Below the pieces are notes generated by a model, which was not told the DNA's origin, did not search any database, and saw nothing but the letters and a program-made list of their open reading frames with translations. The position numbers were made by a program, and so were the translations under genes. Of a stretch of DNA of 64,000 nt, positions 19,865-30,447 are shown in pieces. This DNA is from Acidobacteriota bacterium (GTDB taxonomy: Bacteria; Acidobacteriota; Vicinamibacteria; Vicinamibacterales; CAVVIG01): contig JADZED010000080.1 in assembly GCA_020850715.1 (NCBI GenBank), forward strand, positions 318,524 to 382,523, given 5' to 3'. Every line of letters starts with the position of its first letter. Position 1 is the stretch's first letter.

Positions 19865-20250
19865 CAACGGGCTCCTTGGCTGGCGCGGTCGAGCGCCGAT
19901 TGCAGGGCCCGTGCCGCGAATGTCGACAGGTAATGCCTGTCCGGCGGCACCTGCGGCAGCTGCGCCAGCGGCACGGCGGATCTGGCGTGATCGAGCGAGC
20001 GGCCGGTCACCGTCTCGGCCAGTTGTTCGCAGCACGCGACGAGCGTGGCGCAGGTCGTCGCCTCGAACGCCACCGCGCTGATGGTGTCGCCGTCGACGGC
20101 CAGCGTGAAGCGTGCATGGCGTCCGCCGGCGTCGTGCTGGACGTCGCCGGCAATCGGCAGCGGCGGCCGGCGCCGCCGGCGAAGTCCGCGTTCGATGTAA
20201 TCGATGATGGATGGAACCCGGGGAGACGCTGAGCAGCAGGCGGACGGCAT
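19864..20250 (-). CDS. NifU/IscU N-terminal-like iron-sulfur scaffold homolog
   Basis: IIDYIERGL...GDVQHDAGG..FTLAVDGDTISAVAFEATTCATLVACCEQLAETVTGRS; stop/start overlap (TGATG) with the DsrE gene. Confidence 0.5.
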   Translation of the reverse strand: MPSACCSASPRVPSIIDYIERGLRRRRRPPLPIAGDVQHDAGGRHARFTLAVDGDTISAVAFEATTCATLVACCEQLAETVTGRSLDHARSAVPLAQLPQVPPDRHYLSTFAARALQSALDRASQGAR

Positions 20251-20444
20251 GGGCGCGGGACGCGCGGGTCCCGCCACGATCCTATCGGACGCCGCCTGGG
20301 CCCGCAAGACGCCTCGCCTTTCATTCTGCAAGGACCGTTTCGGATCGAACGGCCGACGATCGCCGCACCGGGCGCGAAACGCGCCACCGGCGCGGTCCGG
20401 CGTCGCGGTGTGCGCTGGCCCGGGACTTGCCGCCTGAGGCAGGC

Positions 20445-21233
20445 GTGCAATCCCACACCAGCCCCCGCGCGCGTGCCGCGAAGGAAGCCGTCGGTCGCCT
20501 GCCCGGGCGAGCGGTCGGCGCCAGAGTCCCCGGGTCGACGGAATTCATCCTCCAGCAGCACGATCCTCGCCTGCGCGGCTGTCCTGCGCCGCGGCCTGGT
20601 TCGCTGCTCGAGGACCGTGTGTGCGCGGCGCTCACCTGGAACGTCTTTCAGACGCTCGCGCTCATCGCGCCTTCCTTCTGGCTGCGCCGCCTGAAAGCCC
20701 GTCTGGTCGGCCTCGATGCGATCGACCAGGCGCCTCTTGAAGCCGCGGCGCTCTTCTGGGAACCTCTCGGAACGCGGCCTGCCGCCGCGGGGGGCCACCC
20801 CTCGCGCGCCGATGTGCTGATCGAGACCGAGCACGCGGTGTTCGGACTCATGGCGCTCTTCGGCCGCGACCTGTCGTGGGACGCATCGGCCGAGCCGGCC
20901 GCCGATCCGGTGCTGCAGTTGATCGACGGCGTGTCGTTCCGAGCCGGCGTGCGCGGCTGTTACGTCGGCCTCGTCGCTTCGGACGCCCAGGCGCCGGTGG
21001 CCGCCTCGCTCTTCGATCGGTACGCCGGTTCGCGCGACGGGCTCGCCCGCCGCCTGCCCGCGCGGCGGGACGGTCTCGCGAACATCTGCGGCATCGGCCG
21101 CACCACGTGGACGAACATGCACACCATCCTGCGCGACTGCGCCGGCGCCGACGTCCTCGACGACCTGGAGCGGTACGCCGCCTCTCGCACCGTCCGCTGG
21201 CTCGCCGCGGCCGGCATTGCGCCGGCCGAATAG
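20445..21233 (+). CDS. Uncharacterized protein (possible degenerate PD-(D/E)XK nuclease fold)
   Basis: Long ORF with natural composition; ALTWNVFQTL...ADVLIETEHAVF region; assignment weak. Confidence 0.4.
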   Translation: MQSHTSPRARAAKEAVGRLPGRAVGARVPGSTEFILQQHDPRLRGCPAPRPGSLLEDRVCAALTWNVFQTLALIAPSFWLRRLKARLVGLDAIDQAPLEAAALFWEPLGTRPAAAGGHPSRADVLIETEHAVFGLMALFGRDLSWDASAEPAADPVLQLIDGVSFRAGVRGCYVGLVASDAQAPVAASLFDRYAGSRDGLARRLPARRDGLANICGIGRTTWTNMHTILRDCAGADVLDDLERYAASRTVRWLAAAGIAPAE

Positions 21234-21292: not shown

Positions 21293-24049
21293 TCACACCG
21301 CCATCTCCTCCCACCGCCGCACCGAGTAGTGCAGCGGCTTGCTCCACAGGCTCTCGAGCCCCTCGAGGATGTCCGACGCCCAGCCGAAGACGTTGCGCCC
21401 CGCGACCACGCGCCGCATCGCGCGCATCCGTGCACGACGCTCCGCCGGCGGCATGTCGATCGCCGCCAGCAGCGCCGCGGCAAACCCCTCGACGTCGTAC
21501 GGGTTGATGATCAGCGCGTCGCGCAGCTCCTGAGCCGCCCCGGCGAGCGCGCTCAGCACCAGCACGCCGTCCTCGTCCTCCCGCGCGGCGACGAACTCCT
21601 TGGCCACCAGGTTCATCCCGTCGTGCAGCGAGCTGACGATGCAGAAGCGCGCCATCCGATAGAGCGCGACGAGGCTGCCGATGGTCAGCGGCGTCTTGTA
21701 GTAGCAGATGAGCGGCGCGCCGCCCGGCACCGCGTGCCGCCGGTTGAGCGCCTCGATCTGGCTGTCGATCTCCGCCTCGAGCGCGGCGTAGCTGCTCACC
21801 TCCGACCGCGACGGCACCCCGATCTGGATGAAGGTGAGCTGCCCGCGCAGGGCCGGCCGCCGCGACACGACCAGGTCGAGCGCGGCCAGCCGCTCGGGGA
21901 TCCCCTTGGTATAGTCCAGCCGATCGACGCCGATGCCGATGAGCGGCGCCCGCAGATCGAGCAGTGAGGTGAGCCGCGCCTGCTCCAGCGCGAGCGCCTC
22001 GGCGCTCGTGATGTCCTGGATGCGATCGTAGTCGACGCCAATCGGCACCGAGACCACCGTCGTGTCGTGCCCGGCGAACTGGACCTCCGACGACTCCGGC
22101 TCGATCGCGGCGCCGAGCTCCTCCCGCGCCGCCTGCAGGAAGTTGCGCCGGTCGCGCTCGAGCTGGAACGCGAGGAGGTCGTTCGCCAGCAGCCCCGCCA
22201 GCAGCTCGCGGCTCCACGGACAGATGCGCAGCCGATCGGGCGACGGCCACGGGATGTGCCAGAACAGCGCCGTGCGCACGTTCGGCCGCCGCCGCCGCAG
22301 CGCCGACGCGACCAGCGCAAGGTGGTAGTCCTGGATGAACACCGGCGTGTCCGCCGACCGCAGCTCCTTCGCCGCCGCCTCGGCAAACCGATCGTTGATC
22401 TCCTGGTAGGCCGCCCAGTCGTCGGCGCGGAACTGCGGCCGCACGTCGACGACGTGGCAGAGCGGCCAGAGGCCCTCGTTGGCGAAGCCCTTGTAATAGG
22501 CGGCGAAGGTCGGCTCGTCGAACCAGAGGCGGCGCAGCGCGTACGAGGGGCTGTCGGGCGGCACCATCACGGTGTCGTGCGCGTCGACCACCAGCCGATC
22601 GGCCGGCCCGGCGCCGTGGGCGATCCAGACGCCGCCGCGCTCGCGCATCAGCGCGTCGAGCGCGACCGCCACGCCGCCGGTCGACGGCGACGCGCGCAGC
22701 GTGCCGTCGGGCAGCGCGCTGTGCATGTAGGGCTCGCGGTTCGACAGCACCACGAGCGGCCGCCGCTGCTGCGCGCCGCGCTCGCCCGCGCGCAGCAGCG
22801 CGCGGCGGAACAGCAGCGGGCCGGCGAGCTCGTGGATGCCGATCAGCGCGACGACCAGCGCCTGCAGGTTCATGCCCCAGCCGCCGAACTCGCGGGCGAC
22901 GACGGCGGCGAAGCCGAGCGTGATTCCGGCCTGCGACACCAGCCCCGTCCACATGTAACGCCGGCTGTCGTCGTCCAGGACGACGCGTCGCGCGCCGGCG
23001 GCGACGCCCGCTCGAATCAGCAGGAGCCGCACGACAGAGACGGCGACCGCCGCCAGGCCGATGACGGCCGGGGCGTCGATGCGCAGCGACGCGCCGACCG
23101 CCACGAAGAAGATCACGAGCACCGGCGGCGCCGCGCGCTGCACGGCGCTCTTGAGCGCGTCGCCCGAGGCGCTCGACAGGTTCTCGATCACGAGGCCGGC
23201 GGCGACTGCGGCGAGCAGCGGCTCGAACTGCTGCGTGCTCCCGACCTGGCTGAGAAGCGCGCACGCCGCGAGGATGATCAGCGTCGTCTCGCGGCCGACG
23301 TATTTCAGGTACAGGCCGACCAGCGCGCCGACCAGGACGCCGAAGGCCACGGCGCCGCCAATCTCCCACGCGAACCTGGTGAGGACGTCGGCCCCGCCGG
23401 CCTCCGCCCCCATCGCACCGCGCGCGAACTGCATCGACAGCGAGAAGACCACCAGCGCCGCGAGATCGGCCAGCACGACGACGGCGAGCACCGTCTCGCT
23501 CAGCCGCCCCCGGGCGCCCGTCTCGGTCGTCACGGCCGCGGTCATCGTCGGCGAGAAGCTGATCACGATGATGATCGTCAGCAGCACCATGGCGAGCTTG
23601 GGCAGGCCGGCCGCGTCCGGCGCGATCGGGAGCCACGGCCAGACCACCCAGGCGACGGCCCCGGCGCCCGCCATCGCGACCGCCAGGATGATGCCCGTGA
23701 GCCGCACGATGTCGTGGAGGCGGCGGCCGAGGCGCTCCAGGTTGAGCGTCAGCCCCGCGATGAGCGCGATGAACGTCGTCGCGACGCCCGAGATGACCTG
23801 GAGCTGCGACGCCATCGGCGCCGTGATCACGTTGCCGAGATACGGGCCGGACAGGAGGCCGAAGACCAGATACCCGGTGAGCCGCGGCAGGTGAATCCGC
23901 CGCAGCAGGGCGCCGGCAATCGACGCGCCCAGCAGCGTGAACCCGAGCGCCAGAGCCGTTCCGGAGCGCGGCAGGCCGCCGGGTTCGGCCAGCCGCTGGA
24001 CCCACAGAATGCCGGCGACCGCGAGCGCGAGCGCGGCAATCCGCTTCAT
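21293..24049 (-). CDS. Fusion: CPA2-type cation:proton antiporter domain + GT20 trehalose-6-phosphate synthase-like domain (918 aa)
   Basis: N-terminal antiporter (SFSPTMTAAVTTETGARGRLSETVLAVVVLADLAALV); C-terminal GT20 (VFIQDYHLALV, GVDRLDYTKGIPERL, IQIGVPSRSEVSSY, SSLHDGMNLVAKEFVAAR) in one uninterrupted frame. Confidence 0.88.
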   Translation of the reverse strand: MKRIAALALAVAGILWVQRLAEPGGLPRSGTALALGFTLLGASIAGALLRRIHLPRLTGYLVFGLLSGPYLGNVITAPMASQLQVISGVATTFIALIAGLTLNLERLGRRLHDIVRLTGIILAVAMAGAGAVAWVVWPWLPIAPDAAGLPKLAMVLLTIIIVISFSPTMTAAVTTETGARGRLSETVLAVVVLADLAALVVFSLSMQFARGAMGAEAGGADVLTRFAWEIGGAVAFGVLVGALVGLYLKYVGRETTLIILAACALLSQVGSTQQFEPLLAAVAAGLVIENLSSASGDALKSAVQRAAPPVLVIFFVAVGASLRIDAPAVIGLAAVAVSVVRLLLIRAGVAAGARRVVLDDDSRRYMWTGLVSQAGITLGFAAVVAREFGGWGMNLQALVVALIGIHELAGPLLFRRALLRAGERGAQQRRPLVVLSNREPYMHSALPDGTLRASPSTGGVAVALDALMRERGGVWIAHGAGPADRLVVDAHDTVMVPPDSPSYALRRLWFDEPTFAAYYKGFANEGLWPLCHVVDVRPQFRADDWAAYQEINDRFAEAAAKELRSADTPVFIQDYHLALVASALRRRRPNVRTALFWHIPWPSPDRLRICPWSRELLAGLLANDLLAFQLERDRRNFLQAAREELGAAIEPESSEVQFAGHDTTVVSVPIGVDYDRIQDITSAEALALEQARLTSLLDLRAPLIGIGVDRLDYTKGIPERLAALDLVVSRRPALRGQLTFIQIGVPSRSEVSSYAALEAEIDSQIEALNRRHAVPGGAPLICYYKTPLTIGSLVALYRMARFCIVSSLHDGMNLVAKEFVAAREDEDGVLVLSALAGAAQELRDALIINPYDVEGFAAALLAAIDMPPAERRARMRAMRRVVAGRNVFGWASDILEGLESLWSKPLHYSVRRWEEMAV

Positions 24050-24966
24050 CGATCCGGGCTCCGGGCGGCATGGAACGTGTCGGCAATCGCCGAGGTGAGC
24101 ACGAGCACCGAGAGCAGGCTTGCGACCGCCGCCGATCCGCCGCGGGCCCCATCCATCGCGACCACGATGGCGAAGCCGAGCGGCGCCAGCGGCCACGCGT
24201 CGCTGTCGCCCGCCCGCACGGTCCAGCGGCCCCACGTCAACCGCGAGAGCAGCGCCGTGAGACAGATGAGGGCCGCGGCCGCGGCCGCGACACGCCACGA
24301 CACGTGGGCCGTGGCGCCCGCGATGACGAGCAGCAGCGCGACGATCGGATGCTGGAAGTGCACCGCCTCGGCGGCGATGCCCTGCATCCGCCGCCTGCGC
24401 AGCAGCGTCCAGGTGCCGGCCGCGATCCAGCCGACCAGCAGGCCCGAGACGGTGAGATACTCCGCCACGCCGCCGAGCAGCAGCAGCGTGGCGATCCAGA
24501 ACACCCGCCGCGACTCTTCGGCATCATCGTCGCCAGCGGTCAGGATCCAGCCGGCGCCGGCGACGACGATCGCGATCGCGCAGGCCTGGCCGGTGAGGAC
24601 GAGCGCGCGCGAGGGCGGATGCTGCTGGAACGACAGCGCGAGGCCGACGAGCACGATCGCCGCCGACGGCACCACGCCCGGCCGCGCGTCGAACGGCGCG
24701 GCGTCGTCGCGGCGGCCGAAGATCGTCAGCGCGCCGATCAGCGCCAGCGCCACCGGCACCGCCGGCTTCAGCAGCGCGAGCACGTCTGGAGTGAGCAGGG
24801 CGAGCCCTTGCGGACCGAGCGCGATCCCTGCCGCCAGCAGCAGCGACGCCTGCGAGGAGACGCTCGTCCAGCCGTTCGATTGCGTGCCGATCTGCTGGAT
24901 GTGCAGATCCAGCGGATCGGGTTCGCCCGTGGCGAGCGGCGAGCGGTAAGGAGCGAGAATGTTCAT
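24046..24966 (-). CDS. Polytopic membrane protein of unknown function, coupled to the antiporter-GT20 gene
   Basis: Multiple hydrophobic helices; ATGA overlaps at both ends. Confidence 0.75.
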   Translation of the reverse strand: MNILAPYRSPLATGEPDPLDLHIQQIGTQSNGWTSVSSQASLLLAAGIALGPQGLALLTPDVLALLKPAVPVALALIGALTIFGRRDDAAPFDARPGVVPSAAIVLVGLALSFQQHPPSRALVLTGQACAIAIVVAGAGWILTAGDDDAEESRRVFWIATLLLLGGVAEYLTVSGLLVGWIAAGTWTLLRRRRMQGIAAEAVHFQHPIVALLLVIAGATAHVSWRVAAAAAALICLTALLSRLTWGRWTVRAGDSDAWPLAPLGFAIVVAMDGARGGSAAVASLLSVLVLTSAIADTFHAARSPDR

Positions 24967-26234
24967 CGGGAGAGCGTCACCAGCAGATGTTCCGCGCCGC
25001 GCACGACGACCAGGAGCGTCGTGCCGCCTCCGCCCGCGGCCTCGATCTGGCGGCGGACCTGCTCGGGAGTCGGCGCCGCGTCCGCGCCCGCGCGGACGAT
25101 CACGTCGTTCGCCCGCAGCCCGGCGCGGTCGGCGGCACTGCCGGCTGTCACGCGTACGACGCGCGAGCCGACGCGCGCGGCGCGCGCGAGCCGCAGGCCG
25201 GGATCGCCCGACTCCGCGGCCGGCGCCGGGGCGGCCGGCTCGGGCGGCGGCGACGCGATCACCGTGACGTCGAGCACCTCGCCGCCCCGGCGCACGCGCA
25301 GGACGGCGGCCGCGCCCGCGGCGAGACGTTCCGCGCGGACGCGCCACTCGAACGTCGTCGCCACGCTCTGTCCGTCCACCATTTCGACGACGTCGCCGAT
25401 CGACACCACGCCCGCAGCCGGGCCGTCGACGCCGTCCACGACGACGCCCCCCGGCGATCCGGTCGCCGCGGCGAGCGCCGGCGTCAGCGCCCGCACCGAC
25501 ATGCCGAGAGAGCCAGGCGCCGCGCCAGGCGCATCGAGCATCCGCTGCGCGCGATCGCGCAGCGCCCGTGCGGGGACGATCAGCGATTGCCCTTCTTCGT
25601 CCAGCGCCATGCCGAGCCACTCGCCCGCGGCGTTGAAGACGAAGCTGCCGCCCGCCAGCCGGATGCCATCGGGTGCGCGCCACACGGCGGTGGACCAGGC
25701 CGGGCTGCGGACCGCGTTGAGGCCGTCGACATAGAACGGCGCGATCGTCAGCCGGCCGGTCGGGGCGGAGGCGAACAGATAGGTCGGGGCATCGATGGCG
25801 GCCGGCTCCCAGGTGCGCCGCGGCGCAGGATTCGACCCCGCGCGTATCACGCCAAGCCCGGTCGGCCGGTCGACGGCGAGCACCGAATCGTCGCGGGCCG
25901 CCTCGTCAGGCAGGCGCAGCAGCGCCACGTCGTCTCGGAGCGGCCAGGCCCAGGCGGCCAACCCCTCGTCTGACGACCCGCCTCGGGCGCTGCGCGGTAC
26001 CGGGACGAGGGACGCCGCGATGCGCCCCTTCACCTCTTCGAGCTGATCGGCCAGATCGGCGAAGGTTGCCGGCCGGCTGATCTGTGTGAGCACCGGCGCC
26101 ACCGGGCTCTGGAGCGGCGCGTCGGGGAAGCGGAGCCTCGCGAGAACCCACAGACACACCAGCGCCAGCGCCGCGGCCGTGATGAGCCGCCTGGTGTCGC
26201 GCGAGACCCTCGGTCTCGAATCTCCGTCCAGCAT
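24963..26234 (-). CDS. Membrane-anchored HtrA-like protein with two PDZ domains, predicted protease-inactive
   Basis: N-terminal TM; trypsin-like remnant RLAGGSFVFNAAGEWLGM (GNSGG Ser replaced); two PDZ domains (LGMSVRALTPAL..., GLRLARAARVGSRVVRVTAGSAADRAGLRANDVIV). Confidence 0.75.
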   Translation of the reverse strand: MLDGDSRPRVSRDTRRLITAAALALVCLWVLARLRFPDAPLQSPVAPVLTQISRPATFADLADQLEEVKGRIAASLVPVPRSARGGSSDEGLAAWAWPLRDDVALLRLPDEAARDDSVLAVDRPTGLGVIRAGSNPAPRRTWEPAAIDAPTYLFASAPTGRLTIAPFYVDGLNAVRSPAWSTAVWRAPDGIRLAGGSFVFNAAGEWLGMALDEEGQSLIVPARALRDRAQRMLDAPGAAPGSLGMSVRALTPALAAATGSPGGVVVDGVDGPAAGVVSIGDVVEMVDGQSVATTFEWRVRAERLAAGAAAVLRVRRGGEVLDVTVIASPPPEPAAPAPAAESGDPGLRLARAARVGSRVVRVTAGSAADRAGLRANDVIVRAGADAAPTPEQVRRQIEAAGGGGTTLLVVVRGAEHLLVTLSR

Positions 26235-26477
26235 CGTCTGTGGATCCCTGCCCCGCTGCCATCGCCACTCGATCGCCCATGGTCACTTCATGCCTGAGCT
26301 CGGTCGGTTGTTCTCTGCCCAGTATAGCGGCGTCGATCCGCCGTACGGCTGACCTTCGGGCCCATCAGCTGCCTCACGGATCGACCCGGCGCTGCCGCGC
26401 CGACGCGCGGTGATATGCTTCGCCGATTCGACGGCCGGACGTCTGTGGCGCGAGGCTTCGCGCCGAGGAGGATGGCG

Positions 26478-27494
26478 ATGCGGATCCTGACGGCGGTCCT
26501 GGTTCTCGCGGCGGCGCCGTTCACGACGGCTGCTCCGGCGGCGGCGCAGACGGGCGCCGCGGCACAGTTCGCCGGCACGTACTCGCTCGTCACGATCGAG
26601 GCGAAGGATCCGGCGACCGGGCGATGGTCGGCGCGGCCGGATTTCAACTCGAACGGTTACATCATCTATGCGCCGACCGGCCAGATGGCGGTGCACATCC
26701 AGCCGAAGGTGCGCTCGAAGTACGCGGGCGCCACGCCGACGGCGGAAGAAGCGGCGGCGGCGATGCGCGGGTACACGATGTACTTCGGCGGCTACACGGT
26801 GAACGGGAATGAGCAGTTCGTCGTGCACCATCGGGTCGGCAACGTCAATCCGGGCGCCGTCGTCGACGCGAAGCGCTATTTCGAGTTCGTGACGACGCCG
26901 CAGGGGCGCGAGCGCCTGATCCTGACGCCGGCGCCCGGCAACACGGGGCCGAAGGCGCAGGCGACCACGCGGCTGATCTGGGAGCGCCAGGATGCGGCAC
27001 CGCTGAGCGCCGAGCAGGAGAAGTTCGTCGGCTTCTACAAGCTGCTCTATACCGATCGCTACCGCACCAAGGACGGCAGGATGGTGTTCCACGGCGATCC
27101 GTCCGGCAAGGCAGGCGGGCGCGTGACGACGCAGGCGGGGACGTCGTACATCATCTACACCGACACCGGCCACATGATGGTGATCCAGATGAACAACTCC
27201 GGCCGCGTGAAGTACGCGGCGGCGCAGCCGACGCCGGCCGAAGCGCTGGCGGCGTGGCGGAGCATCGGCGGCTATTTCGGCCGCTTCGTCACCTTCGAGA
27301 ACCAGAACCCGCCCTATGTGATCCACAGCCAGCAGGGGACGTCGACCCCGGGCGCGTACAGCGACCAGCAGCGGTTCTATCAGTTCACCGGCGACGTCCT
27401 GCGGCTCGGCGGCCCGCCGCGCTACGACGCGGAGACCGGCGAGCTCGAGGGCGGCCACCTCTACTGGCAGCGGATGAAGGCCGGCGAGAAGTAG
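26478..27494 (+). CDS. Secreted protein with tandem lipocalin-like domains
   Basis: Signal peptide MRILTAVLVLAAAPFTTAAPAAAQ; two repeats (FAGTYSLVTIE...YIIYAPTGQMAVHI; FVGFYKLLYTDRY...YIIYTDTGHMMVIQM). Confidence 0.8.
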   Translation: MRILTAVLVLAAAPFTTAAPAAAQTGAAAQFAGTYSLVTIEAKDPATGRWSARPDFNSNGYIIYAPTGQMAVHIQPKVRSKYAGATPTAEEAAAAMRGYTMYFGGYTVNGNEQFVVHHRVGNVNPGAVVDAKRYFEFVTTPQGRERLILTPAPGNTGPKAQATTRLIWERQDAAPLSAEQEKFVGFYKLLYTDRYRTKDGRMVFHGDPSGKAGGRVTTQAGTSYIIYTDTGHMMVIQMNNSGRVKYAAAQPTPAEALAAWRSIGGYFGRFVTFENQNPPYVIHSQQGTSTPGAYSDQQRFYQFTGDVLRLGGPPRYDAETGELEGGHLYWQRMKAGEK

Positions 27495-28089: not shown

Positions 28090-30447
28090 CTAGCGCAGCG
28101 CCGACGAGGGGACGGCCGACGGCTTCAGCACCAGCGTGTGTTCCTTCTGCGCGTCGACCGCGCCGCGCGTGAACGCCATCGGGAAGTACTCCTGGCGGTC
28201 CCACAGCGGCAGCAGATTGCCGTAGTAGGGGCTCTCGGGCTGACCCGACTGCCCCGGCACGTTGGTGGCGACCGAGCGATCCCAGTTGCCCGTGTCCATG
28301 ATCTCGCGATAGCTGGCGCCGCCGGCGAACGGCGTGCCGGTGCCGCCGCTCCGCTCGAGCGTCGGCAGGTCGTACGCGCTGACGAACGGATGCGCAAACG
28401 ACTGCGTGTGCATCCGGCCCCAGCGCCACTGATTCCAATCGGGCCCCTGCGTCTCGGTGAGCTCCTGGATCGCCTTTGCGAGCCCCGGCTCGACCAGCGG
28501 CCGCCGTTCCTCGAGCGGCCGCCAGAAGTCGTAGGCCTTCGGATCCGACATCGCCTGCCGCCACGTCTGATAGATCGCCGCCGCCGCGCTGGTCTTGTCG
28601 AGCACGGCGTTCCAGCCGGCGACCATCGCGCGCGCCTTCTCGACGTCGGGCGTTCTCCCGGTCCAGCCGCGGAACAGGTCCTGGTCGAAGGAGGCCTGGA
28701 GCATGTACGCGTCGTGCTGCAGCAGCTTCGAGTCGTCGATGGTGAACTTCGTCCGCCGGTTCTGGATGATGTCGTTGATCACCTGTTCGACGCGCGTCAC
28801 GCGCTCGGTCGGGATGCTGGCGAGCGACTTGAACGCGACCGGCGGCCAGTAGCCGGTGACGTTGATGTTGTTGTTCGCCGTCGCGATGTAGCCGGAGACC
28901 GGGTTCCAGCGCCGGGGCAGATCCTGCCGGAAGCCGGTCCACTCGTACTCGCCGGTGCCAGGCACCGGCATCCGGCCATCCCAGCCGCGCCGCACCGGCG
29001 TGAGCGCGGAGCTCTGCTCGCCGATGTTGCCGTCGACGTCGCCGCAAATCAGGTTCTCGGTCGGCGCCTTCCAGTACATCGCGCGATCGAGGAAGTCCCT
29101 GCAGTCGGCGGCCTGGCTGAGACGAAGGCCGGCGAGATAGGGCGCCGTCCCCGGCTCGTGCGACGCGGTGCGCACGGCGTAGGCGCGATGGTTCTTCGCG
29201 TCTTCGAACACGATCGGGCCGTGGCGGCCCACCTTGAACTCGATCGTCCGGGGCGCGGCCTCGCCTTTCACCCTGATCGAGTCCTTGACGATCTGGAACT
29301 GCTCCCAGCGCCCTAGATACAGCATCTGGTTCGCGTTCGCCGGGTTGGTCTCCTCGACGAACACGTCGGCCTGGTCGTTGCCGGCGATGGTGAGCCCCCA
29401 CGCGACGCGCTCGTTGTGTCCCAGCCCGACGCCGACAAACGGCGCCTCCTGCGCACCGATCACGTTCCAGCCGGGCGAGACGAGATGGAAGATGTAGCGT
29501 AGCGACGGCGTTCCTACCTGCCGGTGCGGGTCGTTGGCAACCTGCGGGCGGCCGCCGTTGGCGTACTTGGTCCCGATGACCCAGTTGTTGCTGCCCGGAT
29601 CGGGATTGAAGTCCATCACCATGTCGCCGACGTACTCGCCGGAGCCGAAGAGCGCCCGGTAGGGCGCGGCGATCTCGGGCTTCGGCAGCGGACTGCCGCC
29701 CCGGCCGCCCCACTGCACGTCGTCGCCGATCCTGGAGAGATCGAGCCCGATCGGGACCTCGATCTCGGCCCAGGGGTCGGGCATGCGCTGGCGCGTGGCC
29801 TCCTTCGCGCCAACCCTCGCGACCAGACGCGCGAGGTTGATCTCGTCCATGCCGCCGAGGCCGGCCGAACGGAGCAGCGGCGTTTCCGGCTTCCAGGGCT
29901 CCGGCTTCAGGCCGGTGAGCTTGAATTCGACCGGGAGGTTGCTCATCGCCTGCTCGATGTAGGCGTTGAGGCCGTCGGTCCAGGCGGTGAAGATCCGTTT
30001 GCCGTCGGGGTGGTAGCTCGTCCACTCCTCGTCGTCGATCGGGCGGCGATACATCGCCATCCGCTTCGCGCGATCCTCGTCGACAGCCGCCGGGCCGAGG
30101 ATCTCGGCGAGCCGCCCTTCGTTGGTCATGCGCCACATGTAGAGCTGCCAGAGCCGATCCTGGCCGGCCACGTACCCCTGCGCGTAGAACATGTCGTCCT
30201 GGTTCTTCGCGTAGATGTGGGTGATGCCCCACTTGTCGCGGATCACCTCGACCGGTTCCTTCACGCCGGGCACGCTGATCTCGCCGTCGATCTTCGACAG
30301 CGACTGCTTCGCCAGGGCCTTCAGATCGGCCGCGCCGGCGGGCGCCTGCGCGTAGCCGGCTGCCGTCGTCGCCAGGACGATGCCGGCAGCGATGAGGACC
30401 ACGGCCGCAACGCGATGACCTGTCGGCAGCCACTGACGGACACGCAT
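28090..30447 (-). CDS. Penicillin acylase family protein (Ntn hydrolase)
   Basis: GSNNWVIGTKYANGGRPQVANDPHRQV nucleophile region; IRDKWGITHIYAKNQDDMFYAQGYVAGQDRLWQL. Confidence 0.92.
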   Translation of the reverse strand: MRVRQWLPTGHRVAAVVLIAAGIVLATTAAGYAQAPAGAADLKALAKQSLSKIDGEISVPGVKEPVEVIRDKWGITHIYAKNQDDMFYAQGYVAGQDRLWQLYMWRMTNEGRLAEILGPAAVDEDRAKRMAMYRRPIDDEEWTSYHPDGKRIFTAWTDGLNAYIEQAMSNLPVEFKLTGLKPEPWKPETPLLRSAGLGGMDEINLARLVARVGAKEATRQRMPDPWAEIEVPIGLDLSRIGDDVQWGGRGGSPLPKPEIAAPYRALFGSGEYVGDMVMDFNPDPGSNNWVIGTKYANGGRPQVANDPHRQVGTPSLRYIFHLVSPGWNVIGAQEAPFVGVGLGHNERVAWGLTIAGNDQADVFVEETNPANANQMLYLGRWEQFQIVKDSIRVKGEAAPRTIEFKVGRHGPIVFEDAKNHRAYAVRTASHEPGTAPYLAGLRLSQAADCRDFLDRAMYWKAPTENLICGDVDGNIGEQSSALTPVRRGWDGRMPVPGTGEYEWTGFRQDLPRRWNPVSGYIATANNNINVTGYWPPVAFKSLASIPTERVTRVEQVINDIIQNRRTKFTIDDSKLLQHDAYMLQASFDQDLFRGWTGRTPDVEKARAMVAGWNAVLDKTSAAAAIYQTWRQAMSDPKAYDFWRPLEERRPLVEPGLAKAIQELTETQGPDWNQWRWGRMHTQSFAHPFVSAYDLPTLERSGGTGTPFAGGASYREIMDTGNWDRSVATNVPGQSGQPESPYYGNLLPLWDRQEYFPMAFTRGAVDAQKEHTLVLKPSAVPSSALR

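Follow-up and report, generated by a model that had tools for sequence, protein, structure and literature searches.

Whether an ion transporter and an osmolyte-synthesizing enzyme are truly joined in one polypeptide, and what such a protein would do for the cell, is the question raised by a single gene in the window, the 64,000-nucleotide stretch of acidobacterial DNA analysed here. The gene lies on the reverse strand at 21293..24049 and encodes 918 residues, with a CPA-type antiporter domain followed by a GT20 domain, in a frame that runs from 24049 to 21293 and is stop-free along its whole translation. The antiporter half comprises residues 1-420 (22790..24049, reverse strand), delimited by Pfam and by alignment with KefC, and the GT20 half residues 431-900 (21350..22759, reverse strand), delimited by Pfam, alignment with OtsA, AlphaFold modelling and PDB matches. 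PF00999 (Na_H_Exchanger) covers residues 40-398 (E 1.9e-28), scoring 99.8 bits against a gathering cut-off of 26.2, and PF00982 (GT20) covers residues 433-899 over positions 4-472 of its 473 (E 2.4e-105), scoring 353 bits (cut-off 32.5), which places the two halves among the CPA antiporters and the GT20 enzymes, respectively. GC3 stays between 0.87 and 1.00 in every 60-codon block, the domain junction included, so that coding is continuous. The GT20 half is modelled with AlphaFold at a pLDDT of about 90, and the top PDB matches of this model are trehalose-6-phosphate synthases; the membrane half, for which the input consisted of just five fused sequences, is for that reason modelled poorly (pLDDT below 50).

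The same fusion is carried by 28 of the 162 genomes examined from the order of the window, at 50-71% identity, in several families and with no internal stops (one of these copies ends at a contig end). This recurrence rules out a missed stop or frameshift between the domains, which the original prediction had named as a possible objection, and leads to the rejection of an assembly artefact; the uninterrupted fusion with a complete GT20 domain is thus borne out by the open frame, the Pfam matches, GC3 and conservation. Four contigs of a second collection also carry it, some of which may represent the same organisms as the 28, and no fusion beyond these four was found among the best 80 loci of that scan, which are also the loci covered outside the phylum; two Elusimicrobia loci (L058 and L060), matching from residue 382, were considered as additional fusions and rejected, as they have no antiporter domain. 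In a 297-genome sample of the phylum, every full-length match falls in the order of the window. A single fused clade is rejected neither by the antiporter tree (AU p 0.73) nor by the GT20 tree (AU p 0.28), and the trees would allow either one or two fusion events. Two loci are irregular: in L166 (7719-9018, reverse strand; genome G297), pieces of OtsB, antiporter-GT20 and GT20 are found in separate frames and are possibly decayed or misassembled, and in L161 (G365), a run of undetermined residues near the end of the fused frame makes the tail beyond it unreliable.

Regarding the enzymatic half, R10, Y77, W86, D131, H155, R263, K268, R301, D362 and E370 of Escherichia coli OtsA, which we take from OtsA structures to be catalytic or substrate residues, are all identical in the fusion, and fused and free GT20 copies alike keep the OtsA residue at the catalytic and substrate positions checked; W42 of OtsA corresponds to H478 in the window, and to H or Y across the fused and free copies. 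The OtsA equivalog model TIGR02400 gives 404 bits and does not reach its cut-off of 564.85, and the protein is therefore filed as an OtsA-like GT20 rather than as an OtsA equivalog; an OtsA/OtsB model gives 440 bits, and the glucosylglycerol-phosphate synthase model TIGR02398 gives 269 bits, short of its cut-off of 569. Downstream sequence extends for 800 bp or more in 25 fused loci, and 11 of these have an OtsB-type gene there on the same strand, which mostly overlaps the fusion stop or sits close to it, as judged by alignment ends; it lies about 700 bp away in L115 and is split across two frames in L150. The neighbouring OtsB copies that were scanned score above the TIGR00685 cut-off. PF02358 is present in 24 of the 28 fused genomes (missing from G000, G327, G338 and G175), and no second GT20 match at 1e-60 was found in 19 of them among the candidates scored. 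The product is most likely trehalose-6-phosphate, since OtsB adjoins the fusion in relatives and the OtsA-type active-site residues are intact. The reading that the GT20 half makes something else, such as glucosylglycerol-phosphate, may draw on the TIGR02398 match, on H478 in the place of W42 and on a window genome in which OtsB is missing, but the scores of TIGR02400 and of the OtsA/OtsB model are far above that of TIGR02398 and the phosphatase neighbouring the fusion in relatives is of the OtsB type, a context that renders such a product very improbable.

The product had been left open in the original prediction, which saw no OtsB in the window. That observation was right and extends to the rest of the genome sequence, which is 93.6% complete, so that an OtsB could be located in the missing part; the question of the product is largely answered through the relatives, by OtsB context and OtsA residues. 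An OtsB-less genome leaves trehalose-6-phosphate with no obvious fate and counts against the reading preferred here; a TreS-type gene is present in this genome and could supply trehalose. Directly downstream of the fusion, at the side where relatives often have OtsB, lies a convergent open reading frame of 340 residues (20211-21233), which matches no Pfam model and has no counterpart in the loci examined.

The conserved operon to which the fusion belongs begins with a PDZ protein and a membrane protein designated memU and has the antiporter as its third gene. In the window, the PDZ protein (24963..26234, reverse strand; 423 residues), which has a membrane anchor at its N-terminus and two PDZ domains recognized by Pfam and by alignment of relatives, is followed by memU (24046..24966, reverse strand; 306 residues) immediately upstream of the fusion, with a 4-nt overlap at both joints; of the 27 loci having memU, 25 show an overlap of 1 or 4 nt between its stop and the start of the fusion. 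The cassette also exists free of GT20, memU adjoining the antiporter in 17 of the 18 unfused loci examined, and in further lineages of Acidobacteriota, too, a memU-type gene immediately precedes that of the antiporter (L190, L191, L192, L193, L196, L197 and L198). The memU and antiporter profiles align colinearly along 277 columns (probability 96, E 3.5e-9), a distant memU matches the antiporter profile with 54.5 bits (E 4e-16), and the model of the memU of a relative, of modest quality (pLDDT 57.5), retrieves NapA and NhaP first and KefC as well; the memU profile found no match among the sequences of solved structures. By these comparisons memU is homologous to the antiporter and would constitute a second antiporter-like subunit of CPA fold. 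As for the PDZ protein, the alignment across relatives reveals no conserved serine-protease motif before the PDZ domains, and a protease-derived sensor may be guessed. Trehalose genes also occur beside unfused cassettes, OtsA-OtsB in L179 (divergent) and OtsB in L124 and L171, and in L184 a PDZ fragment and OtsA-OtsB are arranged divergently; this proximity points to a functional connection that does not depend on the fusion. The remaining neighbours are ordinary, a Lipocalin_5 protein divergent from the operon (26415-27494) and a penicillin-amidase family protein (28090-30447), and no PADLOC match points to an anti-phage role.

The ion site bears on whether the membrane half could still move ions. 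The fusion was originally labelled CPA2, which is right as to the fold family but is not matched by the diagnostic residues: the DD pair of NapA is absent from the fusion in the alignment. Nor does the fusion carry the KefC signature LSST...QD...K (PMC10224563), showing instead S-F-S-P, A194-D195 in TM5, aligned to Q155-D156 of KefC, and R341 in TM10, aligned to K307. Against the sequences of solved structures, the antiporter profile gives only a weak match to MjNhaP1 and repeat-protein noise. The ion-site aspartate itself, D195 in the window (codon 23465..23467, reverse strand), identified by aligning fused and unfused operon antiporters, is retained by 24 of the 28 fused and by all 18 unfused proteins; L118, L119, L164 and L165, all members of family f2, have Q or E at the position. 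In these proteins, the ratio of membrane-half to GT20-half distances is 2.9, versus 1.4 in the main clade, which fits a relaxed constraint on transport while the membrane domain is still kept, and transport by the antiporter half is, to judge from these four proteins, not universal. Both the substitution and the faster change of the membrane half in f2 would be expected if this half were only a non-transporting anchor or sensor, with memU, or no protein of the operon, moving the ion; as a description of the fusion at large this is unlikely, given that D195 is kept in the 24 others, among them that of the window, whose memU has lost its motif.

The two putative ion sites are better considered together. 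Unfused operons keep both, the antiporter aspartate in 18 of 18 and a (L/V)DD motif in every memU copy read. Where the antiporter aspartate is lost, memU keeps LDD (L118, L119 and L164; the contig of L165 has no memU), and in about 14 fused operons the memU motif is altered or deleted and the antiporter aspartate is kept. The window belongs to the latter: its memU has a deletion of about 80 residues relative to relatives, the TM5 LDD motif among them, in a frame that is still open. Around nine fused operons keep both motifs, L150 is ambiguous, and wherever both genes of a fused operon can be read, at least one motif is kept. With few independent events behind it, the pattern is no more than suggestive of reciprocal loss between memU and the antiporter.

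Taken together, these data are best accommodated by a membrane-tethered trehalose-6-phosphate synthase mounted on a probably two-subunit antiporter and coordinating ion movement with trehalose synthesis, a reading to which we give slightly better than even chances. The N-terminal half would be one subunit of a probable cation:proton antiporter, memU its partner, possibly in a heteromer, and the membrane-anchored PDZ protein the third member, with the GT20 domain seated on the antiporter C-terminus, presumably in the cytosol, in the slot that the regulatory RCK domain occupies in KefC. The enzyme would make trehalose-6-phosphate, which OtsB, often encoded next to it, would convert to trehalose; most likely, osmolyte synthesis would respond to the ion or turgor state of the transporter, and ion movement would thereby be kept in step with the accumulation of trehalose in osmotic or desiccation stress. 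Besides the OtsB-less genome with its TreS-type gene, this reading has against it the TIGR02400 score below the cut-off, the poor model of the membrane half and the f2 proteins that lack the aspartate. It is also conceivable, though less likely, that the halves were joined merely for co-expression and a fixed stoichiometry and work independently, with no allosteric coupling: an unfused cassette and OtsA/OtsB already adjoin in L179 and L184, which makes simple gene joining plausible, and the linker is short, with no dedicated coupling element found. The retention of the membrane half in f2 despite the lost aspartate, with the memU motif kept there, would nevertheless be odd if transport were its sole use.

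The coordinating role favoured above may be one instance of a wider arrangement. In two other acidobacterial antiporters of this type (L189, 3994-8472, and L190, 4224-8744, both on the reverse strand), the membrane half is followed by about 1070 residues, which towards the C-terminal end give weak to moderate matches to AAA_16/AAA_22 and nSTAND1-like domains, and another enzyme or signalling domain may therein occupy the slot held by GT20 in the fusion. Tentatively, the two-subunit complex of memU and antiporter could be a general acidobacterial module for ions or turgor, accompanied by the membrane-anchored PDZ protein in Vicinamibacterales, with interchangeable C-terminal outputs, a trehalose-6-phosphate synthase in Vicinamibacterales and AAA/STAND-like extensions elsewhere, and in which either ion site, though never both, could be lost after fusion.

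Several known systems resemble parts of this protein. With the OtsA of E. coli and mycobacteria it shares the GT20 fold, all the catalytic residues checked and, in relatives, the OtsB neighbour, but OtsA is soluble and has no membrane domain, and the fusion stays below the TIGR02400 cut-off. KefC, a K+:H+ antiporter of the CPA2 type with a regulatory RCK domain at its C-terminus (PMC2920069, PMC10224563), likewise has a membrane half of CPA type to whose end a further domain is attached, and conserves the TM5 aspartate and the TM10 basic residue; in the fusion, however, the added domain is an osmolyte-synthesis enzyme instead of RCK, and the SST and Q-D of KefC are FSP and A-D. The msc-gt-tpsp operon of Thermoproteus tenax (PMC3634074) unites genes for trehalose synthesis and for an ion-conducting membrane protein, although as separate proteins, with no covalent fusion and with a mechanosensitive channel in place of an antiporter. 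In Synechocystis, inorganic ions directly control the osmolyte-phosphate synthase GgpS, which they activate by driving its release from nucleic acid (PMC4390839), but this control operates with no attached transporter and the product is glucosylglycerol-phosphate. No description of the antiporter-GT20 architecture was found in the literature searched, which covers few subscription journals, so that an earlier description or database entry may exist; within those bounds the claim that no such protein had been described stands, and both domains belong to known families, their combination being apparently undescribed. The architecture and the link to osmolyte synthesis that were originally proposed are retained, and the control of synthesis by ion sensing is kept as a hypothesis; the operon, the GT20-less cassettes and the loss of the ion site in some fused members had been missed.

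In the usual picture, ion movement and the synthesis of compatible solutes are coordinated by separate proteins that respond to a shared ion signal, and a covalently joined antiporter and synthase would make this coordination testable in a single polypeptide. The natural variants in which either ion site is gone would help in telling transport and sensing apart, and the operon with its paired CPA-fold subunits would represent an unusual, possibly heteromeric, antiporter.
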